Of a DNA stretch of 64,000 nucleotides, positions 7,538 through 51,501 are shown in pieces; position 1 is the stretch's first letter, and each line of letters starts with the position of its first letter. The position numbers and the translations under genes were made by a program. The stretch spans positions 30,947,712-31,011,711 of the forward strand of contig JAAONU010000004.1 of the NCBI GenBank assembly GCA_012932295.1. The letters are read 5' to 3'. The notes below the pieces were generated by a model. It had not been told where the DNA came from. It saw only the letters and a list, made by a program, of their open reading frames with translations, and made no database searches. Origin of the DNA: Cyclina sinensis (taxonomy: Eukaryota; Mollusca; Bivalvia; Venerida; Veneridae).

Positions 7538-7543
7538 TGAACG
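7538..7543. other. Target-site duplication, left copy (TGAACG)
   Basis: The six bases directly outside the left end of the 16.5-kb transposon. The same six bases sit directly outside the right end at 24079-24084, in the same orientation. Confidence 0.88.
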
Positions 7544-7661
7544 TATGGAAGCCCTGGAGGGACATTTAAAATTAAATATGAACTGTAAATTATTAAAACT
7601 TATAACTTGAATCTTAAAAATTAAAATTTAGTTATTAATACTTAAATATTAGAAATACGGT
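7544..7661 (+). repeat. Left terminal inverted repeat of the 16.5-kb transposon
   Basis: 118 bp, with no mismatch to the reverse complement of 23961-24078. It begins TATGGAAGCCCTGGAGGG and continues as AT-rich sequence built from ATCTTAAAAATTAAAA-like phrases. Just inside it, GCGGCAAACGGCCATTA (7679-7695) resembles a block just inside the right terminus. Confidence 0.93.
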
Positions 7662-8568
7662 AAAGCTATACATAAAAAGCGGCAAACGGCCATTAGTATA
7701 TACGCAGTGATGGCCAGCGGCAGTGATGAAAACGAATTCAAGGTAAGGTAAACTACACATAGGCCCAATTCTACTGACAAAATGAGACACAGCAGACAAT
7801 TTGAGACTCATTGCCGAAAAAAAATATTTGCACGAGATCGATCTGAGTAATTTCTCGGACGGTTTTCATGAAAATGCCTCGGGTTAGGACGGGACCCTGA
7901 CATACCAGTAAACTATTTAGGTTCGTTTATCAGGTTTGCGAGAATGGTGGTAATGATAATGATAAAGATGATCATGATGATTATTGTTACTTGCATTACC
8001 TCCCCAATTGCTATTACGCCATTATTTTATAAAAAAAAGAAAAAAAAAAGAAAACGAAATTTTCAAGCATTTTAATCAGAAACGTATGAAATAATTTGAT
8101 TTGTTTAACCAGGGCAGTAATTTAGGCCCTGGTTTATCACTGATTTCGTTCCAGCTGTAGTAAAAAAAAATCTTAGCATTATTCCATGAAGTTTTGGCTC
8201 TTGAAAACATTACTTATATTTGGATAATTGTATATTTCGGATACCTATAATATATTATAGCAGTATATTTACATAGTACCCGGAGCTATAGATTAAACTT
8301 TGATCTTTCCGTACCGGAAAACCGGTACGATGATAAAAGAGTTACTTCCCTTTTTATCAGTGTGCCATTTGTAAATTATGAAGACAACAAGGTATATTCT
8401 AGTCTCACGTTGCTTATTTCAAGTTCATATTCAAATCCATTGCAGGTCTAAATAGTCGGACGAGGTATAATCCAACATAATAATCTGTATTTAACGTCGG
8501 CAAGGTACAATTAACAAACATAAGCTCATACCAGCTTTTGAACCGACCGCACTGATGTTGGCGGGTAT

Positions 8569-9081
8569 CCAGTCATTACCTGATTACTCCCCCTGGACGT
8601 TACACATCTGGTCTGGACATTACTCCCTCTAAGACTAGTCTTACACCTCCCAATATATAATTGTACAGTTTTGTAAGGTGTGATTTATCAAAAACTAAGG
8701 GTGTGAAAACACTCCTTTAATTATGTTTGTTAATCACATCAGTCAATTAATCAGTTATTTAAGTAGATCAAAAGCCAGATGCATAAGGAAAATTTTAGAG
8801 CAATTATTACGAGAGGGACTAATAAACTTAAGTAATCATATATATATATTACAGTCAGTTTGTTATTAAAAACATAAATCTTAAAGTTTGATATTATTAA
8901 ATCCGTTTACTCTCACCAACTCACATGCATGACAATTTTATACACATAGTCAATCCTTTTATAAAGTGTGCCTCATTAAAGGTGTGATCACACCTGACTA
9001 ATTATATCTTAGGAGATGTAATGACTAGTCTTGGAGGGAGTAATGACCAGAGGTGTAACGTCCAGGGGGAGTAACGACTGG
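8569..9081. mobile_element. MITE-like element with long inverted repeats, in kinase intron 1
   Basis: About 80 bp at the left (CCAGTCATTACCTGATTACT...) is an inexact reverse complement of 9007-9081 (...CAGGGGGAGTAACGACTGG). Shared phrases include TACTCCCCCTGGACGTTACA and AGACTAGTC. No ORF. ATGTTGGCG occurs just before the left end and again a few bases after the right end, which may be trace of a target duplication. Confidence 0.65.
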
Positions 9082-9289
9082 AAACCATGTTGGCGTATGG
9101 TGGTCTCACTCATTCGCCTCCAGATCCGAAGGTGGAGCGATTTTATACGGTGACATTTTAAGTGTGTCCACCTTAAAGGCTGAACAAATGAAAATATCAG
9201 ATCTATAAAATCGGTTCAACTCTTTAATCATGATTAATAAGGCTAACTGATAGTCCTTCATTTAAAGACTTGGCACATTTAAAGTTTTA

Positions 9290-9535
9290 TTTTTATGTTT
9301 TACGTTTATCGGAAAATGCAAAGACATTCAAGCGGATTTGACCAGTGCAAAAATTATCTTCAAATCTGCTATATATGTCTGAATTATTTGGACTAACTGT
9401 GACAGGAAATCGGAGAAAACCCACCTGCCCGATCTGGTGACCACCTGACCATCTCACATCCTGCCCATGAAGAGAATCAAAGCCGGACCGCATTGGTGAG
9501 AAGCAAGTGTGCTAACCACTACGCCAATCGGTCAT
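9290..9535 (-). repeat. tRNA-derived SINE, minus strand
   Basis: On the minus strand, GACCGATTGGCGTAGTGGTT followed by AGCAC resembles a tRNA A box, and GGCTTTGATTC sits where the B box belongs. The body continues to about 9290. A real tRNA gene is unlikely: the stem pairings and 3' end do not hold. Confidence 0.6.
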
Positions 9536-9954
9536 TTTTATGCAGTTTTGACTGTCAGACTTAGGGCAAAGACTTAGAATACACTATGTCATTCTTCGGG
9601 TCTGTTTCTTATGGAGAGGTCTTTTTTACCAAAATGAACCTAGTTGTGTCTAGTTAACAGTGCGATCAGTTTTTGGTTAACTTATAAAGGGCTAGACTTC
9701 CTAACAGCTCTGTCTTATTTTCTCTTTAAAGAAGATAAAATTATGAAAAAAATAAGCTATTAACCAACAATTTTGACAGAGTTTTGATTGAGTTATGGAT
9801 TTTTTAGGATGATGAAAAAAATTGAAATTAGTTGCAGACCTTGTAACAGATCACTATATGAAGTCTTCAAAATTTTACAAAACACAAAATACCTGTAATC
9901 ATGTAAAAATGGCTTTTTGCTATTTGCATGTAAACACATCACTAATAGTATTGA

Positions 9955-10175
9955 TTTCATGACTGATATTAAAATTCAATCTTAAATATCAAAACTTAAA
10001 TCTTAATTATCAATAATAAATAATTATTGATAAATAGTTAAAATTATAATCTTAATAATTAAAACTTAAATCTTAATTATAAATGATAAATAATTATTGA
10101 TTAATAGTTAAAAATAAAATGTTTAATCTTAAATATAAATTATAAATTCTTAAATATTAATGTTAGATATTTAAT
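9955..10175. repeat. AT-rich block of TTAAATCTTAAAT-type units (left)
   Basis: Repeated phrases such as AAAACTTAAATCTTAATTAT and AATAATTATTGATAAATAG, the first twice and the second twice with changes. The style matches the inner part of the terminal repeats (AACTTGAATCTTAAAAATTA) and the second block at 21826-22030. It lies in intron 1 of the kinase gene. Confidence 0.5.
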
Positions 10176-10604
10176 CATTGAAAATTAGTAGTCATTATTT
10201 TAATACTGGTATTGACAGGTGATCCAAGGGATATTAGACACTGAATTCAGGTGATCCTTCAAACGAAAGTCCAGCAATGAGTATTATGATAGTCATTGAA
10301 TTGTACAGACTACAGTTGTTTCATACATTCACAAGATTTTGTCCTGATTTATCAATTCTCTGCTTTGACCTACTAATTAAGGGGTACTAGTCGTTTCTAG
10401 TAGAGGACATTGATAAGTAGCGGATTTTCAGTTCAAATCAATGTAAAAAAATGTTATAGTGGCCATAACTTTGCTATTACCATGCAATTTTTGTTTTACT
10501 TGGTCACAAAATCCTTCTGGCAAGACTTCAAAGCTGACCAGTCTTATTGTGACATTGACTCGCATGGAGTCATGACATTTATTCAAATGAAGTCCTGGTT
10601 AGTT

Positions 10605-11510
10605 ACGGTACTTTTTAGCTCGACTATTCGAAGAATATGGAGAGCTATCCTACTCACCCCGGCGTCGGTGTCGGCGTTGGTTAAAGTTTTTTACAAAGTC
10701 CAATAACTTGAAAACTACTTTAGATATTCCTTTCAAACTTCATATACTTATTTTCTATTCCTCCAACAAGTGACATAACTCTGTCGATTGTAATATCAGA
10801 GTTACGCCTCTTTTTGACTTAAATTCAGGTTAAAGTTTTAGCCTGTATTTCATATTCCCCAAATCAATGATGATACCCTTTTGGAAACTTCACACATGGG
10901 TTGTGTTAGTGGTGAAGGTCATTGTGTAAGGTCAGATAACTCTTACCAATCCTGTTTTCCACATTTATCTCCCTTTTTGACTTAGAAAATTTCAGATTTA
11001 TTCAATTATTGCTTGTTTAAGATTTCAAACATCTTGCAAGTCCATCAAGATATTGCTTTGATACTTTGCATACATGTTTACCATTATCACCTTAACCTGA
11101 ATACAAGAGTAGATAACTCTGGCCTGCATTTTGACCAAATTATGCCCCTTTTTCGACTTAGAATAAAATGTTAAAGTTTTTTAACATTTCAAATATTTTG
11201 CAAGTCCTTCAAGATATTGCTTTGATACTTTGCATACATGTTTACCATCATGACCTTAACCTGTATACAAGAGTAGATAACTCTGTCCTGCATTTTGACC
11301 AAATTATGCCCCTTTTTCGACTTAGAATAAAATGTTAAAGTTTTTGAACATTTCAAATATCTTTCAAGTCCTTCAAGATATTGCATTCATACTTTCCGTA
11401 CATGTTTACCATCATGGCCTTAACCCGTATACTAGAGTAGATAACTGTCAAAATTATGCCCCTTTTTCAACTTAGTCTTTTATCATACTATCATACAGCT
11501 CTTGTGGAAT
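10605..11510 (+). repeat. Dispersed repeat starting TTTTTAGCTCGACTATTCG, with about 180-bp tandem units
   Basis: It begins with TTTTTAGCTCGACTATTCG and holds GGCGTCGGTGTCGGCGTTGG, a phrase I associate with a common mollusc repeat. Inside, CATTTCAAATATTTTGCAAG and CATACATGTTTACCATCATG recur in three to four diverged tandem units. It lies in kinase intron 1. No coding capacity. Confidence 0.6.
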
Positions 11511-12983
11511 GTAGATGGAGAAAATATTGTTATCCAAATCCCAGAAACTATAATTTTCTATTGCACTTGTACAATACAGAAAAGACTTCATTGATTTAAA
11601 TATTATTGAGTATAATAGACCTAATCACCTTTAAAAATATGTATTTCAGAAATCTGAATCAAGGGAAGAAAGATTGAAAGAAGTCCAGTCTTTAGTTGAT
11701 TCCATTCAACGTGAACAGAAGGGAGCTGGGGTAACAAAGAGAATGGTAATAATTTTAATAATAATGACAGCTACATATACAGGAAAATCTATACTAGCAG
11801 CTTGCTTGGCTAATGTTAAGCTACTAGGCCGTTAGGGTGCTAATTGCTATCTTTAGGCCTCCAGGCTTTTAGACTGCTAGGCTGCTAACTTCATGTACAA
11901 TCGCCTTAAGTCTAGACTTATGATTATAAGAACATAATATATAGTTTGTCAGTTTAAGCATAAGTAATGTTTATATTTATATTTCAGGAAATGCGAAGTG
12001 CCTCCAAGAAGATTAAGCTTGGGAGGGGCCAAAGGAGGGAGTACAAAATCAGAATTGGGTGGGAGAATTACAGGAGAGATAAATACAGGCTGGTTACTAA
12101 AGCCAAAGGTGGTGAAACTAGAGAAATTCCCTTCAGCATTGGAGAAGATCTGACAGTGAAAATGATTAAGGATAAAGCAATTGACTTCTTTTTCCCAGAT
12201 GGGAAAAACATTCACGGCAGTGTAGAACAGTTCGAATTCATGCTGGTCTCTACCTCAGGAGATGAATTGAAAAACATGGATTCAACAATTCATGAGTATT
12301 TAAAAGCTCGTGGTATATTCGCAAGCCAGTGCCATTTGTACCTAAGATCTAAGAAAATTGAGCAATTGAACTTTTCAGTAAATGGTAAACCAGTCAACAA
12401 GGTAGACAATCAAATACACATAAAATACTCCAAGCTCAAAAGATCATTATATTCCAGTGACGCTTCGGAAGTGTTGTGTAATACATGGACAAGTTGCAAA
12501 AATATATCCGGTTCTCCAGAAACAGAGTATGATGTGTTTGAAGATGGATATTCAGTGGTTGGGATTTCTGTAAATAATATTGTCTATTTAGAAAGAGATG
12601 AAACTAATGGAATAAACTTGTTGCAGGTGCCTACATGTGAAAATTCAATCCTAAATGGTCCAGATGAAATATTTGGATTTGAAACTGATGACACTGAACA
12701 TTTGGTCATTGGGGCGATTTCATTGGTCCACAACAACAACTGCTTCTACAGGTGGGAGAGAAATGGAGAATTATACAGACAGGGTTTAAATTGTTGTGTA
12801 ATCAAAGTAAGGGATTCAGGAAAGTACAGAGTAACAGTGCAAAAAACAGATTCATCAATTCTGGGTATATCTGATACTGTGGAAATTGATGTTGTACTAG
12901 TTGATAATGACAAAATGTGTGTGCCACCATCGAGAAATGAACAGTCTACCATAGTCACAGGAAAATCAGCAGGAAAATATACC

Positions 12984-13854
12984 CAGGATGTGACAGTTGG
13001 ACAGTCTACCGTGGTCACAGGAGAGTTAACCCAGGGTATGGAAGTTGGACAGTCAACCTAAGGCACGGGAAGATCTACTCAGGGTATGGAAGTTGGACAG
13101 TCTACCATAGTCACAGGAGAGTCTGCCCCAGTTATGGCAGTTGGACAGTCTACTGTAGGCATAGGAGAGTCTACCCAGGGTATGGAAGTTGGACAGTATA
13201 CCGTAGTCATAGGAGAGTCTGCCTCAGTAATGGCAGTTGGACAGTGTACCGTAGGTACAGGAGAGTTAACCCAGGGTATGGAAGTTGGACAGTCAACCGA
13301 AGGCACGGGAAGATCTACTCAGGGTATGGAAGTTGGACAGTCTACCATAGTCACAGGAGAGTCTGCCCCAGTTATGGCAGTTGGACAGTCTACTGTAGGC
13401 ATAGGAGAGTCTACCCAGGGTATGGAAGTTGGACAGTATACCGTAGTCATAGGAGAGTCTGCCTCAGTAATGGCAGTTGGACAGTGTACCATAGGTACAG
13501 GAGAGTTAACCCAGGGTATGGAAGTTGGACAGTCAACCGAAGGCACGGGAAGATCTACTCAGGGTATGAAAGTTGGACAGTCTACCATAGTCACAGGAGA
13601 GTCTGCCCCAGTTATGGCAGTTGGACAGTCTACTGTAGGCATAGGAGAGTCTACCCAGGGTATGGAAGTTGAACAGTCTACCATAGTCATAGGAGAGTCT
13701 GCCCCAGTAATGGCAGTTGGACAGTCTACCGTAGGTACAGGAGAGTTAACCCAGGGTATGGAAGTTGGACAGTCTACCGAAGGCACAGGAGAGTCCGCCC
13801 CAGTTATGGCAGTTGGACAGTCTACCGTAGGCACAGGAAAGTCTACCCAGGGTA
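12984..13854 (+). repeat. Coding minisatellite: 48-bp unit in a 240-bp higher-order repeat
   Basis: 18 units of 16 codons of the form M-E/A-V-G-Q-S-T-x3-G-E-S-x3. Units are ordered in blocks of five (240 bp): 13081-13320, 13321-13560 and 13561-13800 are near-identical in sequence. The frame is kept throughout except for one G-to-T change (GAA to TAA) at 13059. The 48-bp period makes several other frames look open, which explains the shadow frames here. Confidence 0.93.
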
Positions 13855-14825
13855 TAAGAGATGAACAACCTTCCTTACTATTAGAAAAATCTGACCCACT
13901 CATTAAAGGTGAATCATCTGGATCAATCTCAGTAAAGTCTGCCCCGGACAAATTAGACATAGTTGTTGAAGGAGTTGTTGAAATAAGGCCGTCTCAATTG
14001 AAGTATACAGAAAAGATTAACAACGGTGCATTTGGAATTGTATATAAAGCAGTTTGGAATGAAACAACAGTAGCAGTAAAGAAGATACCAGTGAAAAGAA
14101 TGAAGAAATCGAAGCATTTACTTGAAAGGGAACTGAAGGTGAATGGCAGTATTAGGCACCCTAGTATTGTTTTGTTTTTGGGATATTATGTAGCAAATAA
14201 CGAAGTTCAGTTGGTAACAGAATATATGAATGGACCAAACCTTGAACAAGTTCTCTTTGAGGAAAGTGAACTTGATTTCCCTTTGAATAAAAGGATATCC
14301 ACAGGATATCAGATATGTTCAGCTGTGTCCTACCTGCATTCGAGAATCCCCGTGATCTTGCATCGGGACATTAAACCTGAAAATGTTGTCTTGTCGAAAT
14401 GTCTGTCTGTTGCCAAGCTTTGTGATATGGGACTGTCGAAGTTCAAGTCTTTTACAACTGTCATCACTACCATGGCAGGTGGGACACAGCCAGGTACGGC
14501 AGCATACAAAGCCCCGGAAGTTTTTCTGTACAACTCGTCGGCTTCCTTAGCTTCAGATGTGTGGAGCTTATCAGCCACATTAGTGGAACTGCTTACGGAT
14601 GAGGTTATCTGGGAAAATTCCAACGACACAGACAGTTCTTTGGAGGAGTATATATTTACATCGATGAAACATGAGGAACGACCTGATGGCCTCAAATGTC
14701 TTGAAAGAAAAGATATACCCATACAAATTAAGGAAGTTGTATCCACTGGTTTGGAGTACAGAGTATCTGCTAGACCGGCCGCAGTGAAAATCTGTCAGCA
14801 ATTTAGAGAAATGTTGCGAGATTAA

Positions 14826-15290
14826 AACATAATGTTTGCTTGTAGTGACCATGTAAGTGAATATAAAGATGATGTGTGTTTTAAAGAGGCACAATAATCC
14901 TCTACATCTGTACATGGTGTATAAAGAACACATAGTTCTTCATAGTGCTAAGTGCTTAAAGAAATATTTGAAAAAAGAAAAAATGTGTTTCTTGTGCTCT
15001 GTTAATTATATTCTGTATAACATATGTTTTCTCTAAGGTAATTTCTTTTAAAAGTTTACTTAGATCCTTTAATGCTATATAGTTTCCTTTGAGTTGATTA
15101 CTGAGTACCAAAAAATACATCGATACTTTCTCAGAACATAATTCATCATATTACTTGATATAAGACAATATGTTATGTTGTTTGTTTGTTTTGGGGTTAT
15201 TTCCTTCATATTTAACCATGCATTTATTATGACCATTTATCCATTGGTTTCCATCTGTCTGGTCATTGTAGTGTGTAAAAGTGACTCCGA
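14826..15290. other. 3' flank of the kinase gene
   Basis: Probable 3' untranslated and downstream sequence, AT-rich. I see no clear AATAAA close to the stop, and no other gene. Confidence 0.4.
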
Positions 15291-15936
15291 TTTTTAGCTC
15301 ACCTGTCACAAAGTGACAAGGTGAGCTTTTGTGATGGTATGATGTCCGTTGTCCGTCCGTCGTCAACTTTTTCTTTAAACAACATCTCCTCTGAATCCAC
15401 TGGGCCAATTCTATTAAAACTTCACACGAATGTTCCTGGCAATGTCCTCTACCAAAGTTTTTCAAAAAATTCCATTCTATGAAGAACTCTGGTTGCCATG
15501 GCAACCAAAAGGAAAAACTTTAAAAATCTTCTTCTATAGAACCATAAGGTCTAGAGCTTAGATATTTTGCATGTAGCATTGTCTAGTGGAGCTCTACCAA
15601 AGTTGTTCAAATCATGACCCCCGGGGTCAAATTGGCCCCGCCCTAGGGCTTATTAGTTTTATACAATGAAATCTTTAAAAATCTTCTTCTGCAGAACCAC
15701 AAGGCCCAGAGCTTAAATATTTGGCATGAAGCATCATCTAGTACACTTTGGCTGGCCTTTGTACCCAGGTTTAACGGTTGATCTCAACATTCAATTTTTT
15801 CACACATTGTTGGTCTCTCTTTCCACTTTAAATGTTTGAATCATCAGACAAAATGAAACTTTGATTACCTTTCTGCAATTCTTCAGGACTACTTGACAGG
15901 TGAGCGACCCAGGGTCCTCAGGACCCTCTTGTTTTT
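15291..15936 (+). repeat. AGCTCACCTG-family repeat, plus orientation
   Basis: It starts TTTTTAGCTCACCTGTCACA, immediately forms a hairpin (CACCTGTCACAAAGTGACAAGGTG), and ends GGTGAGCGACCCAGGGTCCT...CCTCTTGTTTTTC. It shares internal units with 989-2568. Confidence 0.7.
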
Positions 15937-16313
15937 CATATCTGGCATGTGGTGCACTTACTCAAGTACTCTTTGAATTACCAGAATTGAGACATATTTT
16001 ACCATATGTACTCAATTTCTTAATCATTGCTTCATGGTGCTTGTTTTGTATCTATAATTACTAGTAATAGTTCACATCATATTTGTACACATTTTGTTTT
16101 TATATGTTATCAAAAGTGCTCGAAAGTAATTGTTTGCTTTTAAACGTAATTTTGTTATTGAAACATCTTTTTCACTTTGAAAGAAAAGTAGATGCGCCAA
16201 TATGTTGTAATGGTTTAGTGGTGTTACACCTATGATCAGAAGCATTATTTTATATCGCAAAATATACAATTAGTATTTTACTTGATTTTGTTATAAAATA
16301 AAGTTAATTCCCT

Positions 16314-16532
16314 TTTTAGCTCACCTGAGCACGAAGTGTTCAATGTGAGCTTTTGTGATCACCTGTTGTCCATTGTGGATCTGTCGTCAACTTCTTTTCA
16401 TTCAAACGAATTCTTCTAAACCGCTAGGCTAAATTTAATAAAACTTGGCAGGGATGTTCCTTGATTCAAACTCTAACTTTGTTCAAATAGTTCCGGTCTG
16501 TTGCATATCTAGGTCACAGGGGCCAATAATAT
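16314..16532 (+). repeat. Fragment of an AGCTCACCTG-family repeat
   Basis: It opens TTTTTAGCTCACCTGAGCAC and lacks most of the internal units, ending where an oppositely oriented copy begins. Confidence 0.55.
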
Positions 16533-17940
16533 AAACAAGAGGGCCAAGATGACCCTGTATCGCTCACCTGAGATCAACTGGCCTGATGAAATTAATTAAA
16601 TTTCAATTCAATCCAATAAGTACTTACTGAAATATATCCATTCTAATTCAAAATAAATGGAGGTAAGTCCATATAATATCAGACCAGAGTTATCAATCCT
16701 GATTGTATGAGTGAACCTGAAGACATTCATGAAATTTCAACCCGGTCAAATTAGTAGTTGCTGACATATATTCATTTGATGTAAACATAAAGGGGGGTAA
16801 CTTGTAACAATTAAACTAGGTAGAAGTCAAATAGACAATACTTCAAACTAAATAAATAACTAAGTTCTACATCTTATGGCATCAGAGAAGAATATCTTAG
16901 GAAGTTTTTTCTCATAAGAGCTTATGTAAGATCAAGTGACCTCTGGGGCAGGGTCAATTTGGGCTTGAGGTAAGGATTTTACAAAATCTGGTAGATGATG
17001 CTTCATACCCAATACCTGCGCCATATGCATTGTGGTTTATTTTAAAAAAAAAACTGAAGATATTTTACAATGTGCAAACGTGACCCATGGGACGGGGTCA
17101 ATATTGACCCAGGGGTCATGGTATAAACAAATATGGTAGAGGTTTGCCAGATAATAGCTCTTGCCAAGTATCTAAGCTCTAGGCTCTCTGGTTCATTTTT
17201 AGGAAAATTTTGAAGATTTTCCAAATTAACAACAAAGTGAACCCCGGGGTGGGTCAGTTTCGACCCAGGGGATATGATTTGAACAAACTTCGTAGAGGTC
17301 CACTAGACAATGCTACACACCAAATATCTAAGCTCTAGGTCTTGTGGTTTCTGACAAGAAGATTTTTAAAAATTTTCTTATATAAGTCTATATGAAATCA
17401 AGTGACCCCTGGGGCGGAGCCAATATTAGCCCCAGGGTCATCATTTGAACACACTTGGTAGAAGTCCGCTAGACAATGCTACACACCAAATATCTAAGCT
17501 CAAGGTCTTGTGGTTTCTGACAAGAAGATTTTTAAAAAATTTTCTTATACAAGTCTATATGAAATCAAGTGACCCCTAGGGCGGAGCGATATTAACCCCA
17601 GGGTCATCATTTGAACAAACTTGGTAGAGGTCCACTAGACAATGCTACACACCAAATATCTAAGCTCTAGGTCTTGTGATTTCTGACAAGAAGATTTTTA
17701 AAGTTTTTCCTTTTGGTTGCCATGGCAACCAGAGTTCTGCATGGAATGGAAGTCTTTGAATAAATTTTGTAGAACTTCAAGCAAGGAACATTTCTGCGAA
17801 GTTTTGTTGAAATTGGCCTGGTTGTTTAGGAGAATATGTTCTTTAAACAAAAGTTTAAGCACGCACGCCTGGATGCACGCAACGACGACAGACGACGGAC
17901 ATAGCTCACCTTGTCACTATGTGACAGGTGAGCTAAAAAC
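16533..17940 (-). repeat. AGCTCACCTG-family repeat, reverse orientation
   Basis: It starts ACAAGAGGGCCAAGATGACC and CGCTCACCTGAG, and ends CACCTTGTCACTATGTGACA followed by GGTGAGCTAAAAAC, so it is the reverse complement of the 15291 type. Three tandem units of about 180 bp carry AATGCTACACACCAAATATC and GACAAGAAGATTTTTAAA. Confidence 0.7.
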
Positions 17941-18077
17941 ATAAAAATTTTCTTATCAGAAACCGTAATGCCAAGAGCTTAGATATTTGGTATGTAGAAT
18001 CGCGTAGTGGACCTCTACCTGTTTGTTCAGGTGGTGCCCCTGGGTCAAAATGGGCCGCGCCGTGGGAGTATAATATA

Positions 18078-19607
18078 CTGAACCAAAAAAGAAACTTTCG
18101 CCAAGTTTGAATGTAGATATGTTGGTACAGTTTCAATCCTTTTGGCTGAAAGCTTACATTTTTGTAAAATAATGTATTGTGGTTCTTTTAAAATCGTCAT
18201 TTTGGAGGAAAGGATCAGATTGATTGTTGGATTTTAAATTAAAATAAGGTAGGGGTCGTTTCTAAAGTTAACAATCAGTAGCGTGTGTGACCGCCGTGTG
18301 CGATGCTGACTGCCTGACAGCGACGTCGCATTGAGAGCAAAAGTTTGTTAATTTCAGCCTGTGGAATATTATTCCATTCTTCAATCAATGCTGCTCGAAG
18401 GTCGTTGACGTTGTTTGGAGGGTTCGGACGTCGACGTACGCGTCTATCCAGATTATCCCAAAGATATTCAGTAGGGTTCAAATCCGGACTTTTTGAGGGC
18501 CAGTCGTCGATGAAATCAACGTTATGATTTTGTAAATACTGTATATTGACACGAGCAACATGGGATGTGGCATTATCCTGTTGTAACGTCGTTATTACGT
18601 TATGGGTCTGAAGCAGAGGGATAACATGAGGGCTTAAAATGTCTTCCCTGTATTTTTGGGCATTTAAATTGCCATCAATAACGACGAGCGGGGTTCGATA
18701 CCCGTAGGCAATACCGCCCCACACAATAACTGAGCCCCCACCTCCAAAACGATCCCGTTGCAGTACGCAGCAGTCGGCATAACGTTCATTCCTGCGTCGG
18801 TATAATCGTACACGGCCATCAGCTCAAGACAATGCAAACCTTGACTCATCAGTAAAAAGAATTGTCCGCCAACGCTGTCTTGTCCAGTTTATGTGTCCAA
18901 GGGCCCATTGCTCTCTATTATTGCGATGGCGGCGCGTCAAAACCGAGCCGACGTACGGACGACGTCCGTGCAAACGGCTCTCGGCTAAACGATTCCGTAC
19001 TGTCTGGGCGGAAATACGGTTGTTGTGAGTACCGGGGGTAACAGCAGCTGTAGCTGTCGCTGTTCGAAAGCGATCGCGCAGGTGCTGGTTCAAGATATAC
19101 CGGTCTTGGGCTCGAGACGTTACGCGCGGTCTACCGCTCCGCGGCAAGTCCCTTGTACTCCCGGTCTGTGCAAATCGCCGCCGAAGGCTTCGGATTGATT
19201 GCACGGATGCACCAACACGAGCTGCAACATCCGCAGTTGTGCACCCAGCTTCAAGCATGCCCAAGGCCCTCTGACGTAAATTTTCGGGAATTCTTGGCAT
19301 TGAAATTTCAATACAAAACTTCAATTAAAAACGTTTTTCGATTTTTTTCTACAGCTTTACGACTATAGCAATATTTTGGTAAAGACAAATATGCACCACG
19401 TGGAGCGGATATGCCCATCCCTTACGCGCACGTAAAACTCGAATTTTACGTTGAAAAAACATATCGGGCTTTTATACGGGGATTAGCTGACCGATTTTGC
19501 AAACAAAACGAGTTTTACAAGCTACTACATGTATATATGTGTGTACATCTAAGTGGTACCCTTGAACAAATGGCTCATACTTTGCGAAAGTTTCTTTTTT
19601 GGTTCAG
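18078..19607 (-). mobile_element. Tc1/mariner-type transposon (1,530 bp)
   Basis: The ends CTGAACCAAAAAAGAAACTT (18078 inward) and AAGTTTCTTTTTTGGTTCAG (ending 19607) are exact inverses over about 24 bp and inexact to about 30 bp. TA flanks both ends (18076-18077 and 19608-19609), as expected for this superfamily. It encodes one transposase on the minus strand, broken by a single stop, and is nested inside another repeat inside the 16.5-kb transposon. Confidence 0.9.
18275..19300 (-). pseudogene. Tc1-type transposase, one in-frame stop
   Basis: Minus-strand frame of 342 codons from the ATG of MPRIPENLRQRALGMLEAGC to the stop at 18275. The N-terminal half has two helix-turn-helix regions (TTADVAARVGASVQSIRSLR and the SAQTVRNRLAESRL area). 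The catalytic acids are D in ILFTDESRF, D in LQQDNATSH and E in LNPTEYLWDN, the DD34E type of Tc1. One TGA (18824-18826) follows SRFALS; it sits where an arginine CGA codon would be reasonable, so a CpG-to-TpG change is likely. The frame is otherwise unbroken, so it is a recently dead copy. Confidence 0.88.
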
Positions 19608-20430
19608 TATAGATTTATTTTTCTTTGACCAAAAATAACTTTTATCTTTATTTCAGGATTGCCCGTAGTCGACCCTTATCACTTAGAGGTTAGCGGATCA
19701 AAGGTCAAGGTCACCGTGACCTTGAAGGTAAAATTGGTTATTTTCAATAACTGGAGTACCGTTTGACCTGCAGCCTTGAAACTTAAAATGATTATTGAAC
19801 CCTATTATTCCAAGGTCAAATGTCAAGGTCAACATGAATTTAACTTTAAATACAGTTTAAGTCAACAGTTTGAATACTAAGTCAACAGTTTGAATACAAA
19901 TTTTTTAAGGGGTCGTTAGGTCAAAAGTCAATGTCACCGTGACCTTGAAGGTGAAAAATGGCATTTTATCAATAACTGGAGTTTGACCAGCAGCCTTAAA
20001 ACTTCAGATAGTTGTTCACCATATTGTCAAACATTTTTTCAAGGTCAAACGTCAAGTTCACCGTGACCTTAAAAGTGAAATATGGCTTTTTCTCAATAAC
20101 AGTACTGTTTGACCTGCAGCCTTAAACCTTCACATAGTTGTTCACCATGTTGACCCCCATTTTTTTCAAGGTCACAATGTCGATGTGGATATTCCTTCAT
20201 AGTTTGCTGTGGTCTCTCATAGCTAAGATTCGTTCATGAAATACAGAAAGTTCAAATAACTACGCTAAAGTACATATAAAGCTTGGAGTGCGCGTTATTG
20301 GACTGCGTTTATAAAATCGTCAGTTCATGTGCACTCCAAATCGTAGTTTCACGGCCGTGATAATATAATGAGATATGAAATGAAAATTACAAAGGATGAT
20401 AGTTTCAGTACATGTATTTCCAATCAAGAG

Positions 20431-21699
20431 TTAAAGTGTATCTAACTCAAGTTGTACTTGTTCATATGCATGCATTAATTCTTCATACAAGTCCAAGGCA
20501 TTATGTGCATTCAAAGGCATCTGAAGACCTGGTTTGAGAATATGAGCCAACTCGGAAAAAGTATCACTGCAAATTTCCTTCGGCTGGGCGTAAAGTTCTT
20601 GGCAAATGGAAACATCTTCCATATTGACCGGAACTCCATAATTTCTGGAACCAAACAGCTCCGGGACATTGAATAATACATCTGGTTTGCCAGTACAAGC
20701 CAGTGTATTTTTCTGTTGTCTTACTTGGTGTAAATTCCAATGTATAGCAATGCGATCAAGTTCAACTTGAAGTACACCCGATACACAAAAGCGTAAGCAT
20801 TCTACATGCATTGGGTTCGAACCATCAAATCGACCCAGATCTCTCAAATCCTTCAATTTGTTTATCCACCAGCCAATGCAGTGTTGTTTCAGATATCCCC
20901 ACCATCGTTCTATTCGTTGATTTGTTGTGCTTTTACCGTACATAAAACTTTTCAAGCCTGCCATGGAATCTTGTTGGGTTTGCCTAAAGAAAGGTTGGAG
21001 AAAACTGATGTTGACATTTTCTGTACCTCTATCGGCTCGTACTATACGTGGGACAAACTTGTGAGCTGCTACTGTGTCGAGATAATACTTTGCAATTACC
21101 CTTGGATTATTGTTGGTTGACGCAACTTCTAACCACATCACTCTGCGGCTGTACCCGTCCATCGCACCGTGTATGCATAAACCGAATCGTTTCAATTTGT
21201 CATACCCGTCGATATGCCAACAGAAATTTGGACCTGGAACAAGATATTTACGTCTTTTTAGTTTATGCCCTTTCCTCAACTGCACGCCATCTAGGTCAAT
21301 CTCTCTTAACAAAAGCATCACAACATTTCTTTTAACTTTGAAGTGATAGTCATTTTGTAGACGCTTCCACATGCTTCGATACCCTAAACCTTCCGCACTA
21401 AATTTAAGTTCATTTCGTAACGTTACTTTTATGATTTCTATTGGGGTATACATGAGACCACGGCGTCGTAGGTTGTTAATGCGAAGCAATCGTTTCAATT
21501 GTCTAAGCCCAATGCGTATATTATGTCGACAAAAAAGAAGTAAAACTATTTCTGCATATTTGAAGCCGGCATAGAAGTACCCTTTAATCAGTTCTAGTCT
21601 GTTATTTTCATCCAGTAAAGGTAATGGTGATGGTACAACTGATGAGACATGACCAACTTCTGTTAGCATAAGAAAAGTTATCACCATTATTACTGCCAT
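20431..21699 (-). CDS. DDE integrase-type transposase of the 16.5-kb transposon
   Basis: Intact 422-aa minus-strand frame. Residues about 30-80 are helical and DNA-binding-like (RQLKRLLRINNLRRRG). The YRSMWKRLQNDYHFKVKRN stretch resembles the HTH_21 region that precedes the catalytic core in IS3-type enzymes. The core has WHIDGYDKL (D164), RADRGTEN (D223) and NQRIERWWGYL (E264), a D-D-40-E arrangement of the retroviral-integrase fold. The start is chosen at the ATG 9 bases inside a splice acceptor (TTTGTTTCAG, exon from 21709); the frame is open further upstream only through intron. The first 20 residues are oddly hydrophobic. It converges on the kinase gene and would be transcribed from the right terminus. 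Role: cutting and joining the element's own ends. Confidence 0.85.
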   Translation of the reverse strand: MAVIMVITFLMLTEVGHVSSVVPSPLPLLDENNRLELIKGYFYAGFKYAEIVLLLFCRHNIRIGLRQLKRLLRINNLRRRGLMYTPIEIIKVTLRNELKFSAEGLGYRSMWKRLQNDYHFKVKRNVVMLLLREIDLDGVQLRKGHKLKRRKYLVPGPNFCWHIDGYDKLKRFGLCIHGAMDGYSRRVMWLEVASTNNNPRVIAKYYLDTVAAHKFVPRIVRADRGTENVNISFLQPFFRQTQQDSMAGLKSFMYGKSTTNQRIERWWGYLKQHCIGWWINKLKDLRDLGRFDGSNPMHVECLRFCVSGVLQVELDRIAIHWNLHQVRQQKNTLACTGKPDVLFNVPELFGSRNYGVPVNMEDVSICQELYAQPKEICSDTFSELAHILKPGLQMPLNAHNALDLYEELMHAYEQVQLELDTL

Positions 21700-21825
21700 A
21701 TTCAAATCCCTGAAACAAAAAGAAATAGTACAATAGAATAAAATATTATCAGTGCGTAGTATCAGTTTTTCTTTGAAACATTTTATATATTTTATATTAT
21801 ATCGTTTTCTCCAAAATCTTAACAA

Positions 21826-22030
21826 TTAAATATGAAAAATGAAATATTAAATTTTATATTTAAAATGTTATATGCAAATTCAAAAAAACTTTGTAATTAA
21901 GAATGAAATATTATCTGTAATTTCTAAAATGTTAATAATTAAATCTTAAATATAAAATGTTAAATATAATTTCTAAAAACTTAATATTTAAAGATTAAAT
22001 CTTAAATGTAAAATATTTAAGATAACGACA
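21826..22030. repeat. AT-rich block of TTAAATCTTAAAT-type units (right)
   Basis: Repeats of AATTAAATCTTAAATATAAAA and TTTCTAAAAACTTAATATTT style, like the block at 9955-10175 and the inner TIRs. It lies in the predicted 5' intron of the transposase gene. Confidence 0.45.
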
Positions 22031-22168
22031 ATGGGTCCAGCGACTTTTACATATATTTTTCTTCAAAATGCCATATTTTATTATGAATGCAAAGTAAATA
22101 AAAGTATACATTTTCTGAAAGGGTATGAAGGGAGAAATCTATTTAACACTGTAAAGTCTTGTTTACTA

Positions 22169-22899
22169 CAGTAAAACCTGTCTGTAACAACATCGACTGG
22201 GCCCGACACCTAATGTAATAGACAGGTTGTAATACGGCGGTTATGCCAATTCTTAACTAAAATCTTTACTCTTCTGAACCTTGAATCTTATTTTGATATG
22301 TACCGGGAAGATTTTAATACTATTAAAATTGATGCCATACTGTATAATAATGATTATAAAGTGAAACCTGTCTCTAACAACACCTCTGTGTAAAAATAAC
22401 CTCTTACTAACAACATAACATTTCGGTCCCTTAGAAGAAATTGTCATCATAACTAAACCTGTGTCTTACAACACCCTGTCTTAACGGGACTGTACTGTAC
22501 GTTATTTTATTTTATCATCTATCATAAAAGCATATTTTTGTTTCATTCAACCTTAATCATACTTGTTTTCCTTTTAAAATATTTACCCTCCACAGATTAC
22601 ACTTAAAAGTATTTTTTATCTATGCTGTATTTTATTAATCGGAATATTAAAAAGTGATAAAACCAATGGATCAAATAACAAGGAATAATATTTTCTGGCA
22701 GTATGTATATGTACAAAATACTGTATTGAAATTTATTGTTGTAAATTTTATCAAATAACAAATAACAATATTTCATCATGATGTTATGTAAACCATGATT
22801 TGAGTGTACTTAAGTACTTTTCACTTGACTTGACTTTAACAACCTTAAAATGCGGTCCCAATTTACACAAATCAGTGTTGGTAGAGACAGGTTTTACTG
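22169..22899. mobile_element. MITE with CAGTAAAACCTGTC ends
   Basis: The left end CAGTAAAACCTGTC and right end GACAGGTTTTACTG are exact inverses, flanked by TA on both sides (22167-22168 and 22900-22901). The sequence inside repeats AACCTGTCT and TAACAACAC phrases. No transposase. The ends recall TA-inserting families such as Tc1/ISL2EU-type MITEs. Confidence 0.78.
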
Positions 22900-23287
22900 T
22901 ATTTTACCAAAAATATGTGAAATTATTCATGATTATTAAATCCTGAAACATGATACACATTTGATATTATTAGTTTAAAATTTGATGAAGGTTTTGAATA
23001 CCGGTATGTCCATACAAAATGTCATATGAATCATATTGCAAATTTAATTAATTTATGTCAACACTTTCATAACATTGAATAAGTAGGGAGATAATTGCAT
23101 TATAGTTAGCATTTTCCTTGAATGGATTATTATAATTGTATTATTATCCCAAACAACACTTAACAGTTGTTGTTGAATAATTGCTCAACTTAATTGTTGT
23201 TATGGACATGTTCAATTAAGTGTGAAAATCATCATTGGGACTGAAAAGTTCTAGTGAAGTTTGACACAGATTTTCTTAATAATTCTT

Positions 23288-23580
23288 CATTCAACTTAGC
23301 TCAGTAGGTAGATCATTAGGTCTTTGGATCTCGGGGTCGTGAGTTCGATCCCTGGACGAGGCACATGCATTCCCGTGAAGATTTGGTTGATGAATGATTG
23401 CGTGTTATACTATTCTTCCTTCACCGCTGTTTCAAATGATTCATGTGGAGAAGTTGGCAGTTACTTGCGGGGACGCAGGGTTACTACTGGTTGAGAATCC
23501 AGGAACACTCAGGTGATTGCCCTCCTGTAAATGACTGAAATAACGTTAAAAACGGGCGTTGAACCCGAAAACAACAGCAA
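23288..23580 (+). repeat. tRNA-derived SINE, plus strand
   Basis: CTTAGCTCAGTAGGTAGATC is a good A-box head and GTGAGTTCGATCCCTGG a good B box, as in a tRNA gene. A 200-bp body follows, ending AACGTTAAAAACGGGCGTTG and AACCCGAAAAC, an ending common to mollusc SINEs as I remember them. Not a functional tRNA gene because the 3' acceptor half is missing. Confidence 0.8.
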
Positions 23581-23874
23581 TAATTCAAAGTTTTCATTCG
23601 ATTTCGTACCCACATCCGGTATATATCCTGGTCAAGAAAAATCAATGGCTCATAAAATTAATTCAAGAGAAGATATCATAACATTGAGGAAAACTTCACT
23701 AGGATAATGAAAGGGCTTTCAAACGCCAACTTTATGCGAATTGACGAATTGTAGCATAACGGACCACTGTATACGGCCAACATTTACACAGCAGACAAAA
23801 CTTTCTAGTGTTAAATAGAAACTTCCAGAAAATGTATACTAGTACTTTTGATGAACCGCAAGACCCAATTTTAC

Positions 23875-23945
23875 CTGTAAGTTATGTTCTCTGTGATGCC
23901 AATGGTGCAACTTGTCGTGTCCTGCAGTAATGGCTCGTTGCCGCC
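23875..23945 (-). other. Putative 5' untranslated exon of the transposase gene
   Basis: On the minus strand, the block GGCGGCAACGAGCCATTAC sits just inside the right terminal repeat and is followed by a strong donor, ACAG then GTAAAA (exon end 23875). No ATG occurs between. Splicing to the acceptor at 21709 would place the transposase ATG as the first one. The start point of this exon is a guess. Confidence 0.4.
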
Positions 23946-23960
23946 GTTTAGTGTTGTTTA

Positions 23961-24078
23961 ACCGTATTTCTAATATTTAAGTATTAATAACTAAATTTTA
24001 ATTTTTAAGATTCAAGTTATAAGTTTTAATAATTTACAGTTCATATTTAATTTTAAATGTCCCTCCAGGGCTTCCATA
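23961..24078 (-). repeat. Right terminal inverted repeat of the 16.5-kb transposon
   Basis: Exact reverse complement of 7544-7661 over 118 bp. It ends CCAGGGCTTCCATA and is followed directly by TGAACG. Confidence 0.93.
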
Positions 24079-24084
24079 TGAACG
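24079..24084. other. Target-site duplication, right copy (TGAACG)
   Basis: Six bases identical to 7538-7543, directly outside the right terminus. Confidence 0.88.
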
Positions 24085-29651: not shown

Positions 29652-32600
29652 AAATAGGGAGAGAAAACGAAATGCCAAAGAAGTTGCTTCACTGTTTTTT
29701 CCTCTTTTTATTTTCATTTTTTCATTCATTCTCAAAAAGCTGCGAAACAACGGTAACAATTTTTTGTCTAAAATATTGTTTTAAAAAGTAACACAGGGCC
29801 ATAACTCAACTGTTCATGAGGGGATTTCGATGGAATTTAACATGCATCTGTTCTCATCGACATATACACTAGCATAGTTTCATTAAAATCTAACAGAACA
29901 GTTCTAAGATGGCTCTGTGCAGACATTTTCCAGTACAACATGTTTATTTGAAAATAACAAAGGGTAATAACTCAACAAGATCTAAGACTTCCGGACGAAA
30001 GGCCACCTTTAAAATGAAATCTCAGAATTACGAATTTCATTTCTTAATTACGATATGCTATTTTGTAGAACCGAAATAAATTCGGAATAAAGAATCGTAT
30101 TTTTACTATTTTAGAAATGTGGTCAATGTCACTTGAAGGGTTTTGTATTATTAAGTATATTACTGAAAATAGTATTATCATTGAAAAAGATTGGCTGCCT
30201 GAAACTTAAGTGCTACAACGAAACATATCTTTTTAAATATATTATTGTTGTCACATTTAACAGGCATGAAACAAACGTGACGCAAGTTTTGAAATTAAAT
30301 TATCAAACAAATTAGTCGCAGCTGCACTAAATGATGCAATTTCGTTTGTAAAACTAGTGTGATATAACAAGAGTCAAATACAAATGTATTTCCAAAGTAT
30401 TAAATACCACTGTTGGTAAACGTTAAAGAATTTTGCGAAACCTAAGTTTCGCTGCCAGAATTAACGTTACTAAAGGTTTTCATTAAACGTTTCTTAATCA
30501 AACTTACGTGACGCAACACGAATCACCGTCTCCTTTGGAACCAACAATATGTTCAATATCTTTCACACCTTCATTGTAGAGAATCAGGTCCCTATCTAGG
30601 TTAAATATCATCTGTGTCACTAGGAATTGAAATTTTGTTAAAAACAATCCTGGATACCTGGCTTCAACTTCAGAGAAACTGAAAACAAATAAAAGTAGTT
30701 CTTACATTAGTGTGATATGGCCATTGGTTTTAAGTAACTTTTAACACCTTGAAATAGACGAGAAAAACCACAAGGACTCGGTGTCGGGTAAAACTGGAAA
30801 GGCTCAGGTCAACATACACGGTATCCCTTCGCTACCTCACTTCGACCTTTACCTGTGTTCGACCGGCCCCGGAAAATACCTAAAACACGCACAGAACGCG
30901 ATATTTCCGGTCACGCGCGCGGTTTTTGTTGACGGAAGTGAACAGAAACGTCAACAAATTAAAAATAATCAGAAATGGAAATCCGCACGGTAAAAATTTG
31001 TCTTTATTGTCCAAAACAATGTATTTCAGTCCATTTTTACTATTCCCAAAATTTCACTTTTCAAAAACATGTTTTCACCCCAAAACTTCTAATGATAACT
31101 GTGTCTGCTGCGTCTGACATGTTTTACATATTACCAGGGCCCACCATGAACTGTTATTGATTTTCTTGTAGTATACTGCAGATAATAAACTGCGCTTCAG
31201 TAACACCACTGTTGTTATTAACGTTGGAACATTTTTAAGGCAGAAAATTTAGGTTTTATGTTATTAGGACCTTCTCTCAGACCCTGGTTTGTTTTATTTC
31301 AGAGGAAAGAAGTTGTCAGAGGCCCTTACAGGACTTATGACTATGACAGTTTAAGTAAAGCATACATTGCTGTGAAAGAGTGCAAGTTGTCTGTCAGGAA
31401 AGCATCTGTCACATATGGAGTACCAAAGACAACACTTTTAGACAGACTAAGTGGCAGAATTGACATTGATGTTGTGAAACCTGGCACTTCCCCTCTCTTT
31501 TCTCAAGAGCAAGAGGCCCTTCTAGCAAGGCATTTGCAGACCATGTCTGAAGTGGGATATGGCTACAGCCGCCAGGAAACAATTAACCTGGCATCAGACT
31601 ATGCAGACAGTCTTGGCCTCAGGGACCGGGCATATCCACTCACAGACCGATGGCTATACAAATTCCTTAGTCGTTGGCCAGAGTTAAATGTTAAAAAACC
31701 TAGGAGTTTGGAGGTAGCAAGAGCTAAATGCGCAACTAGGGAGGCTGTTGATACTTACTTTGACTCTCTAAATAACATTCTAGTAAAGTACTATCTCATA
31801 GCAAAGCCTCATTTGATCTACAATATTGATTAAAAGGGGTTGAGTACAGAGCATACACCACCAAAGATCATATCTGGGAAGTTCTACAAAACACAGGCTG
31901 TCACCTCTGGAAAGTCCAGGACTGTAACTATGACAGGCTGTGTAAATGGCATTGGTCAGCAGGTTCCCCCTTTTTTTGTCTTTCCGGGAGCAAGAATGGT
32001 AGATTCTCTGATGGAAGGAGTCTCTCCTGGAGCTAGTGGTACAATGTCTCCTACTGGTTGGTCAAACTCAGAGGTTTTTTCTTCATACATGAAAGACCAT
32101 CTGCTGAAATATCTACCTCCTAGATGTCCAGAAGAACCTGTCCTCATATTCTATGATGGACATAAAAACCATGCTTCTCTTGGTCTTATTGAATGCGCAA
32201 GATCAGAGAATATCATCCTGTCTGTTTTGCCACCCCATTGTAGTAATCTCCTGCAGCCATTGGATGTGAGCTGTTTTGGACCCCTTGAAGTTGGTTGTAA
32301 TGCTGCTGTGCATAACTACATGCGGGAGTCAGGTGGGCGTCTTGTCACTCGGTATGTTGTTGCCCATTTAGCCTGTAAGGTCTACACTGCCACTCTTACT
32401 CCATCAAACATTCAGTCAGCATTCAGGAGGACTAGGATATACCCGTTTAACCCCAGAGTAATCTCTGACCATCAGGTAGCTCCTTCTACATCATTCCAGA
32501 AGGATTCTGATGCAGATCCAGAGTCTTCCAACTCACTTCCCTTTGCTGCAAAACGTTTCCTTCTTGAACGAGGGGGAAAAATTCTAGAAAATGTACAGAA

Positions 32601-45949: not shown

Positions 45950-47165
45950 TTAATTTATGTATGCTTTCAACTTATCATGATGAACGACTCGTGGTCGTTC
46001 CCTCTGACTGCCTTTTATGCGATACAAGATGTTACTGACCTTTTCTGTAATTTCGTAGGGACCTTTCCATGGCCGCATCAGTTTCGCACTTTTACCGACT
46101 TTCCTCTGTGGGTTATAGTACCACACAGAATCACCAACTTCATAAGATATCTGATTTGCATTTAAGTCATAGTTTTTTTTCATAACATCACTTGCAAATT
46201 TTAATTTCTTCCTAGCAAATGAATGAATTTTGCATAGCTTTTCCTCTTACATAATCACTTGCATACCTGCTTTCTTTTTCAGGATTGTTTAATTCAGGTT
46301 CTCCTATTAGCAAGTCAAGGGGTAGACGCATATTTGATCCAAAGATCATAGAGTATGGTGTGACACCTGTGGCGCGATGTACAGCAGAATGGTGTGCCAT
46401 CATGCAGAAAGGTACATATTCATCCCAATCATCACCATTATCAGAAACAAATGCAGTTAGCATATTTAGGACACTTTTATTTGCTCTTTCTACAAATCCT
46501 GCCCCTTGTGGCCTAAAAGCTGTGTTTCTTGTCTTTTTAATGCCAAAAAGTTGACAAAGTTCTTTAAAAAGACTGGACTCGAACTGAGGACCTTGATCTG
46601 TGTGTATACATAAAGGTATTCCAAACCTTTGAAAGAGATTAGATATGAGAGCATCTGCTACTACTCTGGTTTCTATATTGGGTAAGGGAATAGCCTCGGT
46701 CCATTTGGAGAAATAATCTGTAACAACCATTAAATACAAATTGTTTCTCTTTGTTTTACCTAGTGGTCCTACAAAATCTACCCCAATTCTTTCCCACCTT
46801 TCACCTGTAACAAACTGCTTCATGTGAGCCTTTTGCCTTGGCTTAGCCGGTTTTCTGGAGGCACAAACTGTACATTTTCTAACCCAATTTTCAATGTCTT
46901 TTCTTAAACCATACCAGAAAAATCTTTGTCGAACCCTAAAAGTTGTTTTCTTCACACCTAAATGAGCTGATGTAGGTGTATTATGTAACTGTGTTAAAAC
47001 CTGTTTAACAAGGACCTTAGGGAGAATGATTTGATATTCTACTGAGTCTCCTATGTCACTTTCCCATTTTCTGTAAAGTATATCTTGCTTGATTAGCAGT
47101 GATTCCCACCTGTACCAGTAATACTTTAATTCTGCAGTATATTTAGACACAGCATTCCAGTCTGG
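45950..47165 (-). pseudogene. Gypsy integrase region, downstream of an in-frame stop
   Basis: In the same frame as pol but after TAG 47166-47168. It has the H-H-C-C zinc region (HLGVKKTTF to VRKCTVCASR), then catalytic D in GVDFVGP, D in HTDQGPQFES and E in GAGFVERANK. The frame ends at 46212; the last part resumes in another frame at 46183-45950 with GDSVWYYNPQRKVGKS and KGPYEITEKVSNILYRIKG, the GPY/F-like C-terminal module. So one stop and one frameshift (near 46220-46260) break the integrase of this copy. Confidence 0.88.
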
Positions 47166-51406: not shown

Positions 51407-51501
51407 CAAAGAGTTTTGAGTGTCCTCAATATGAATTCCAGTGAATCAGGATTTTCCTGGTTCATAACAGAATAGCTATTATTGACATCTAAGTCAGCCA
51501 T
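51406..51501 (-). CDS. Short upstream ORF of the Gypsy element
   Basis: 31 codons (MADLDVNNSYSVMNQENPDS...) whose TGA overlaps the gag ATG as TGATG. That layout could allow termination-reinitiation, or it could be the original Gag N-terminus cut off by a frameshift. Nothing recognisable in the peptide. Confidence 0.4.
   Translation of the reverse strand: MADLDVNNSYSVMNQENPDSLEFILRTLKTL

Follow-up and report, generated by a model that had tools for sequence, protein, structure and literature searches.

Is a protein-kinase gene that lies between the ends of a DNA transposon a passenger, or is it a gene of the transposon itself? The question is raised by a segment of 16.5 kb in the genome of the bivalve Cyclina sinensis (assembly GCA_012932295.1), contained in a stretch of 64,000 nucleotides (contig JAAONU010000004.1, forward strand; C13:30947712-31011711) that is here called the window. 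A previous reading of this DNA, made from the sequence only, had proposed that the segment is one giant, recently mobile transposon with perfect terminal inverted repeats (TIRs), an intact DDE transposase and a large kinase gene carried as cargo. We searched the genome (902.9 Mb in 154 contigs) for the ends of the element and for its genes. The reading we consider very likely is that of a complete and recently active cut-and-paste transposon, a member of the IS3EU/GingerRoot superfamily, to which both a transposase gene and a kinase gene belong. Large animal DNA transposons with a conserved signalling gene of their own are little known, and here a kinase appears tied to one transposase lineage over several families in one genome.

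The element spans positions 7544-24078 of the window (16,535 bp), and the coordinates of the sequence-only reading prove correct to the base. Its TIRs (118 bp, without a mismatch) are the longest perfect inverted pair of the window – the others of at least 30 nt measure 51 and 30 nt – and TGAACG stands on both sides. A query of 128 bases from the end gave 15 matches in the genome, two of them at 73-74% identity and 13 near-identical: the latter make up six complete pairs (the window's included) and one single end. The six TIR-complete elements (13,518, 16,143, 16,535, 16,632, 16,800 and 16,877 bp) all have mismatch-free 118-bp TIRs and termini of the form TATGG..CCATA, and each is bounded by a perfect 6-bp duplication specific to its site (CTGGTG, ATTTTA, TGAACG, GGGGAG, TTTATG and ACAGGG). 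Over aligned bases they are 99.58-99.77% identical in pairwise comparison. One of them, on C12, is a derivative with several deletions (among them one of 3.5 kb that includes a nested Tc1 element) and a 1.1-kb insertion; in a seventh copy, on C14, the left end is missing its outermost 97 bases, and identity to the other copies is 99.30-99.49%. Since five further elements with two TIRs lie elsewhere, each with a different perfect duplication, the element is not a product of chance: the kinase-carrying family is a real unit, low in copy number and recently mobile. The evidence for recent movement is the identity among the six complete copies and not that of the TIRs, which in a cut-and-paste element gives no age clock. 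Thus the single mobile unit, its giant size and its recent mobility were all borne out, and the whole-genome search with the end did not find the terminal repeats of the kinase-carrying family as a separate short repeat family. A search of the fetched DNA for joined flanks gave only 68% matches across the C10 junction, too weak for a claim of an empty site.

IS3EU elements are described as having TA..TA termini and usually 6-bp duplications, as grouped with GingerRoot, and as encoding an IS3/IS481-like DDE transposase in which the HHCC motif is absent (PMC10045372, accessible portion). The element in the window shares the TA..TA termini, the 6-bp duplications and a DDE transposase that matches PF24764 without any match to a zinc domain. 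The open frame at 20431-21825 (- strand) matches PF24764 at 2e-34 and holds the triad D-58-D-40-E, which upholds the earlier claim of an intact DDE transposase; its four Pfam matches include the PF24764 integrase core and weak ones to rve and HTH_21, and none to a zinc-domain family. From the TATGG..CCATA ends, the 6-bp duplications and the PF24764 transposase together, we regard it as nearly certain that this is a complete element and a member of the IS3EU/GingerRoot superfamily. Exact TAYGGAAGCCCTGGAGGG ends number 77 in the genome, and a control with the reversed pattern gave none. What sets the element apart from IS3EU as presented in the accessible portion of PMC10045372 is its length of 16-17 kb and its spliced protein-kinase gene, a kinase not being described there.

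Gene models are predictions from splice motifs only. The kinase gene comprises three predicted phase-0 exons with GT/AG borders on the + strand, the first of which is present in all six TIR-complete copies. On the opposite strand the 5' part of the transposase gene has a predicted acceptor before 21709, an intron of ~2165 bp and, close to the right TIR, a donor after 23875 (motifs again present in 6/6 TIR-complete copies). The two genes are convergent, and each starts just inside one of the opposite TIRs; because both begin next to a TIR, the identical ends would probably supply both promoters, placing these in or near the TIRs. As for movement, the DDE transposase would bind the 118-bp ends, excise the element and insert it by 6-bp staggered cuts, a cut-and-paste chemistry expected from the superfamily. 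Two AT-rich inner arrays that resemble the inner TIR (9969-10188 and 21819-22023) might be further, putative binding sites for the transposase; the best match outside the element reaches only E 0.019.

The product of the second gene, as predicted, would join an N-terminal domain (hereafter the N-domain), an immunoglobulin (Ig)-like middle region, a linker of tandem repeats and a TKL-like kinase in which the catalytic residues are kept. The kinase domain matches PF00069 at 8.3e-44; its best-scoring solved structures are CTR1 and then RAF kinases, and the kinase lysine and the HRD and DxG residues are invariant across seven aligned sequences. For the N-domain there was no Pfam match, with either the window's exon or the domain as query, and a structure model was poor (mean pLDDT, the model's own confidence score, 44) and was not used. 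A WD-40 assignment was rejected: PDB profile hits to WD-40 proteins reached 6.6e-20, no stretch passed alone, and they were taken as repeat artefacts. The large kinase gene reported earlier is thus present as a PF00069 kinase, but not as an intact frame, for in the window copy a TAA interrupts it. Only the copies on C10 and at C11:2.83 Mb have a main exon open to its end; those at C11:41.9 Mb and on C1 have two stops each (the window one), the C12 copy has an internal deletion, and in the C14 copy a frame shift lies between N-domain and kinase. The array changes in length by steps of 16 residues, and each of the five copies followed as far as the end of the kinase keeps its frame. Among the codons compared that lie outside the array each departure from the majority codon, four stops included, is private to one copy. 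Since these lesions and the window's stop are private, the kinase of the source element was probably open, and the family represents a star-like burst from that single source with decay afterwards.

To ask whether the kinase is more than cargo, we counted as linked any locus of the partner gene (the N-domain/kinase gene) with a transposase within 25 kb. The N-terminal part gave 27 genome matches (55/55 candidates scored), the kinase domain 28 (120/120 scored) and the transposase at least 101 (the best 100 of 287 candidates scored, a limit that we count against our reading). A transposase lies within 25 kb at 22 of 35 partner-gene loci, where 0.0045 per locus are expected from the 82 transposase loci, and the layout is convergent in 20 of the 22. 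After removal of the seven copies of the window family, 15 of 28 loci are still linked, 13 of them convergently. When the kinase loci outside the window family are sorted by identity, twelve reach at least 42%: eleven of these are linked to a transposase (9 in convergent layout), and the remaining one (C1:38682009) stands behind an IS3EU end, so that no kinase hit at this level was found away from an element. Of the eight loci at 36% identity or less, one is linked.

Individual loci show what the linked units contain. At C16:34.41 Mb an open transposase frame of 437 residues, 57% identical to that of the window family, faces a convergent open partner frame of 1044 residues that comprises the N-domain, the middle region, a tandem array of another kind and the kinase. 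Of the two ends of this element one was found, TACGGAAGCC; the right end did not appear in the 10.6 kb beyond the partner frame. The element at C14:24490519-24503714 (13,196 bp) is bounded by two ends; its transposase match (60%) is open, and N-domain and kinase are matched as well. At C6:32117679-32127374 (9,696 bp) there are likewise two ends, with matches to the transposase and to 57 residues of the N-domain between them. A decayed unit with stops at C1:38678894 retains an end, the N-domain (45% identity), the middle region and the kinase (42% each), yet another array and, read by eye, a different short ATG exon with a GT donor behind the end. When the N-domain from C16 was used as query, all 19 matches fell at places already known or at most 2.6 kb off (C12:40169296, C12:41171173). 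On C12 the intervals at 40.17-40.21 and 41.17-41.21 Mb, ~1 Mb apart, match N-domain, kinase and transposase in nearly the same combination, as if a region holding several such elements had been duplicated.

Between the window family and the C16 element silent sites are saturated, and codon positions differ unequally: the fraction of differing first, second and third positions is 0.44, 0.29 and 0.69 in the kinase domain and 0.38, 0.42 and 0.66 in the N-domain, while in the transposase third positions stand at 0.59 against 0.37 and 0.25. The excess at third positions in kinase and N-domain, as in the transposase, indicates selection on the protein; the middle region shows the pattern less (0.63 against 0.53 and 0.42). 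As the kinase gene recurs in diverged IS3EU families, in the same domain order wherever this was read and mostly in convergent layout, we judge it highly likely that it constitutes a standing second gene of this transposon lineage. The earlier designation as cargo holds insofar as the gene travels inside a mobile unit; its recurrence beside transposases of diverged families makes it look like more than cargo.

Two other places carry a related arrangement. At C1:65610132 / 65634308 and C15:21933972 / 21909850 an N-domain match (29%) and a transposase match (49%) lie ~23.8 kb apart and converge, and neither place gave a kinase hit. They may represent an IS3EU family of even greater size whose partner domain is a different one.

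Size classes were compared among 29 paired elements, defined by exact ends only (19 ends were left unpaired). All eight of at least 9.7 kb match both partner gene and transposase. None of the 21 shorter ones has a hit to the partner gene; they comprise three elements measuring 5.3-6.7 kb, fifteen measuring 3.0-4.2 kb in which a transposase match is present, two of 2.9 kb that lack one, and a single pair 202 bp long. Many of these belong to a sister family with TACGG ends, represented by C3:18316088-18319672 and 13 more pairs of 3.4-4.2 kb, all lacking a kinase hit. In most of the short TACGG derivatives that were scored the transposase match is shortened but spans the triad (query ~26-284; a 310-aa frame in many), and a short element on C28 (3,590 bp, duplication CTAATC) likewise has a 310-residue transposase frame. 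At C13:34550075-34550276 two facing ends of the sister family bound 202 bp, a derivative that resembles a miniature inverted-repeat transposable element (MITE). Because kinase-less derivatives are commoner than gene-bearing elements, the kinase is not needed in cis in the sister family, whose derivatives presumably use proteins from intact copies.

Several observations weigh against a kinase maintained by the element. No transposase was found within 25 kb of 13 of the 35 partner-gene loci. Seven of these are kinase-only (26-36%) and look like ordinary host kinases; five are N-domain loci (on C4, C7, C11 and two on C12) that may be decayed elements, since degenerated kinase sequence is also present at C7 and a middle region at both C12 loci; the last is C1:38678894, with its end. 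Nor are the linked loci fully independent: the 11 linked kinase loci of at least 42% identity lie near 8 or 9 distinct transposase loci, several on C12 share one transposase, and two stretches on C12, as well as two on C8, have the look of duplicated regions. In the C6 element there are two stops in the transposase match and no kinase hit. In the sister family the kinase-less derivatives of 2.9-4.2 kb (17 of the 29 pairs) outnumber gene-bearing elements (8 of 29), and in the window family the kinase is whole in only two of seven copies as against seven of seven open transposases. Differences among these copies look neutral in both genes: the kinase parts show 6 replacements and 5 silent changes besides 4 stops, the transposase 9 replacements and no silent change. 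Finally, a fold search with the transposase gave no match at E≤0.001; the entries ranked highest were TnsB and MuA transposases.

A rival reading is that the ends captured a host kinase gene on a single occasion and that it has been carried since without benefit to the element. We consider such passive carriage improbable. The five broken kinases among seven family copies and the many kinase-less derivatives of the sister family are what it would lead one to expect; however, the partner gene stands beside a transposase, mostly convergently, in families that are ~27-51% alike in it, its active-site residues are kept, its codons bear the pattern of purifying selection, and the lesions scored outside the array, like the window's stop, are private and so arose after insertion. 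Equally improbable is that the kinase family is kept for the host, for example in immune signalling, with IS3EU elements only as its vehicle. An N-domain, an Ig-like region and a repeat linker ahead of a kinase do suggest a sensor-effector protein, and many immune kinases are TKL-like, as this one is. But a gene kept for the host is hard to reconcile with its company: a transposase (11) or an IS3EU end (1) accompanies all 12 loci of at least 42% identity outside the window family, and a transposase only one of the eight weaker ones.

Descent from a Polinton/Maverick-like virus, to which the 16.5 kb, the 6-bp duplication, the long TIRs and the integrase-type enzyme might point, is hardly credible given ends of the IS3EU form TATGG..CCATA and a PF24764 transposase; among the nine frames of at least 120 aa that overlap 5000-28000 no credible Pfam match to a polymerase, capsid or packaging protein was found (genes of short exons would escape), and two array or antisense frames gave sub-threshold hits to phage families (E 0.06). 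That unrelated loci lie between fortuitous repeats, by chance or through misassembly, can be dismissed unless the assembly errs at every one of the six sites, for nothing was found in its favour and six near-identical copies occupy six sites with six different perfect duplications.

If, as we prefer, the kinase is the lineage's own second gene, then its function may be sought in transposition. Tentatively, it could be a helper that the element maintains and that works in trans, its target being either the transposase or the chromatin or DNA-repair signalling of the host, to the favour of transposition or of escape from silencing: its long-term conservation, its tie to the transposase lineage and the oppositely oriented kinase of another class in fungal elements suggest as much, if only indirectly. 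In rust fungi, TET+ IS3EU elements have ends of the form TAYGG..CCRTA and 6-bp duplications, and in all TET+ IS3EU families, according to the accessible portion of the source, transposase and alpha-kinase genes are oppositely oriented; a TET/JBP dioxygenase gene lies between them (PMC12730594). The ends of the C. sinensis element fit TAYGG..CCRTA, its duplications are of 6 bp and its kinase is opposite to the transposase, as in those elements; unlike there, the kinase is of the PF00069 type, joined to an N-domain, an Ig-like region and a repeat array, and is not an alpha-kinase. Alpha-kinases form a class different from the PF00069 type. No TET gene was detected: between 14825 and 20431 the frames of at least 120 aa are the nested Tc1 pair and a 122-aa frame without a Pfam match, and short exons would escape. 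It is conceivable, though doubtful, that IS3EU transposition would require phosphorylation, and that an animal eukaryotic-type kinase with an element-specific N-domain and a fungal alpha-kinase fill one role. Should phosphorylation serve transposition or escape from silencing, the family offers a testable system, with intact and broken kinases beside open transposases and the kinase-less derivatives of the sister family as natural controls.

Other large elements offer partial parallels. Styx of Zymoseptoria is an IS3EU-type element of 7927 bp with 36-bp TIRs and three extra genes (GATA, CCHC, DUF3577); it has solo ends, its broken copies are reported to be mobilised in trans, and it was searched with 6-bp duplications (PMC10853768, accessible portion). 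It resembles the C. sinensis element in its IS3EU-type transposase, its size and its possession of extra genes; it differs in its fungal host and in that no kinase is named among its extra genes in that portion of the source. Polinton/Maverick and Teratorn are giant transposons with genes beyond the transposase, and the accessible portion of the paper that treats them mentions neither a kinase nor IS3EU (PMC6431247). From these the C. sinensis element is distinguished by its enzyme and gene set: two genes of its own, with no viral or replication genes detected. The same distinction applies to Starship, reportedly also a large unit with genes beyond a transposase. In the open-licence literature we found no animal IS3EU element for which a protein-kinase gene had been reported, although a Repbase entry may exist. 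The two-gene animal element with a conserved kinase is a variant within a known superfamily.

Table 1. Features of the element and its insertion site (positions in the window; a full stop marks features without strand).
Feature	Position	Strand	Remarks
Left target-site duplication	7538..7543	.	TGAACG
Left TIR	7544..7661	+	118 bp, starts TATGGAAGCCCTGGAGGG
Kinase exon 1 (predicted)	7710..7742	+	First ATG 48 bp inside left TIR; GT donor next
Nested MITE-like repeat	8584..9074	.	In kinase intron 1
AT-rich array like inner TIR	9969..10188	.	~2.4 kb from left end; E down to 3e-6
Kinase exon 2 (predicted)	11650..11745	+	Phase 0, AG/GT borders
Kinase exon 3, main exon	11988..14825	+	Open to end in 2/7 family copies
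N-terminal domain, uncharacterised	12009..12371	+	GG..R and FFP.GK invariant in five aligned sequences
Middle, Ig-like region	12408..12893	+	Weak, below-cutoff Ig_2 matches, only in homologues P0122 and P0123
Tandem array	12980..13855	+	48-bp/16-residue units; copy number differs among elements
In-frame TAA breaking kinase frame	13059..13061	+	Absent at this place from the five other TIR-complete copies
Protein kinase domain, TKL-like	14007..14801	+	VAVK, HRDIKPEN, DMG, APE present
Nested Tc1-like element	18074..19611	-	1.54 kb; broken transposase
Transposase coding sequence, DDE, PF24764	20431..21699	-	First ATG to stop; open in 7/7 copies
5' non-coding part of transposase gene (predicted)	21700..23875	-	Splice motifs only
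AT-rich array like inner TIR	21819..22023	.	~2.1 kb from right end; E down to 9e-7
Nested MITE-like repeat	22167..22901	.	In transposase 5' intron
Right TIR	23961..24078	-	118 bp, same as left TIR
Right target-site duplication	24079..24084	.	TGAACG

Homologues in other data sets follow a similar ladder for the two genes. Among the best 120 of 827 kinase matches the closest are P0121 (95%), P0122 (72%), P0124 (67%), P0123 (55%) and P0125 (44%), after which identities do not exceed 42% and the matches that bear a name are general kinases. For the transposase the values are 97, 71 and 59%, with nothing that ties the kinase and transposase records together. P0123 also carries the N-domain and middle region. 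P0125 is labelled as a Sedimenticola metagenome-assembled genome (MAG) and is probably host DNA in a symbiont assembly. A protein search with the N-terminal part retained none of 1886 candidates at E≤1e-3, although P0123 carries the domain. The closest named relatives of the transposase are from the bivalves Mizuhopecten, Ruditapes and Mactra and, further down, from a hemichordate and a coral; among viral contigs no relative was confirmed. A 3.8-kb contig of a sponge-symbiont MAG (L001) holds a PF24764 transposase relative whose frame seems to be interrupted by short introns, apparently a gene of the sponge that ended up in a bacterial assembly. No partner-gene match occurs within these 3.8 kb.

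Part of the element's length consists of nested repeats (the Tc1-like element, two MITE-like elements and others) that are found in most copies; the end motifs of the Tc1 element, for instance, occur in five of the six TIR-complete copies and are gone from the C12 copy with its 3.5-kb deletion. Being common to most copies, these repeats were inserted in the ancestor and travel along, which rules them out as a break of the unit. Two paired elements of the sister family that have the gene measure 13.2 and 9.7 kb. A dispersed repeat with tandem units of ~160 bp occurs both outside (1022-2179) and inside the element (15448-15686, 17203-17847). Elsewhere in the window, read by eye, two consecutive pogo/jerky-type DDE transposase-like frames with a stop between them lie at 31222-32898 (+ strand), and a gag-pol type retroelement occupies 46212-51445 (- strand), its frames being gag-like, protease/reverse transcriptase and integrase.

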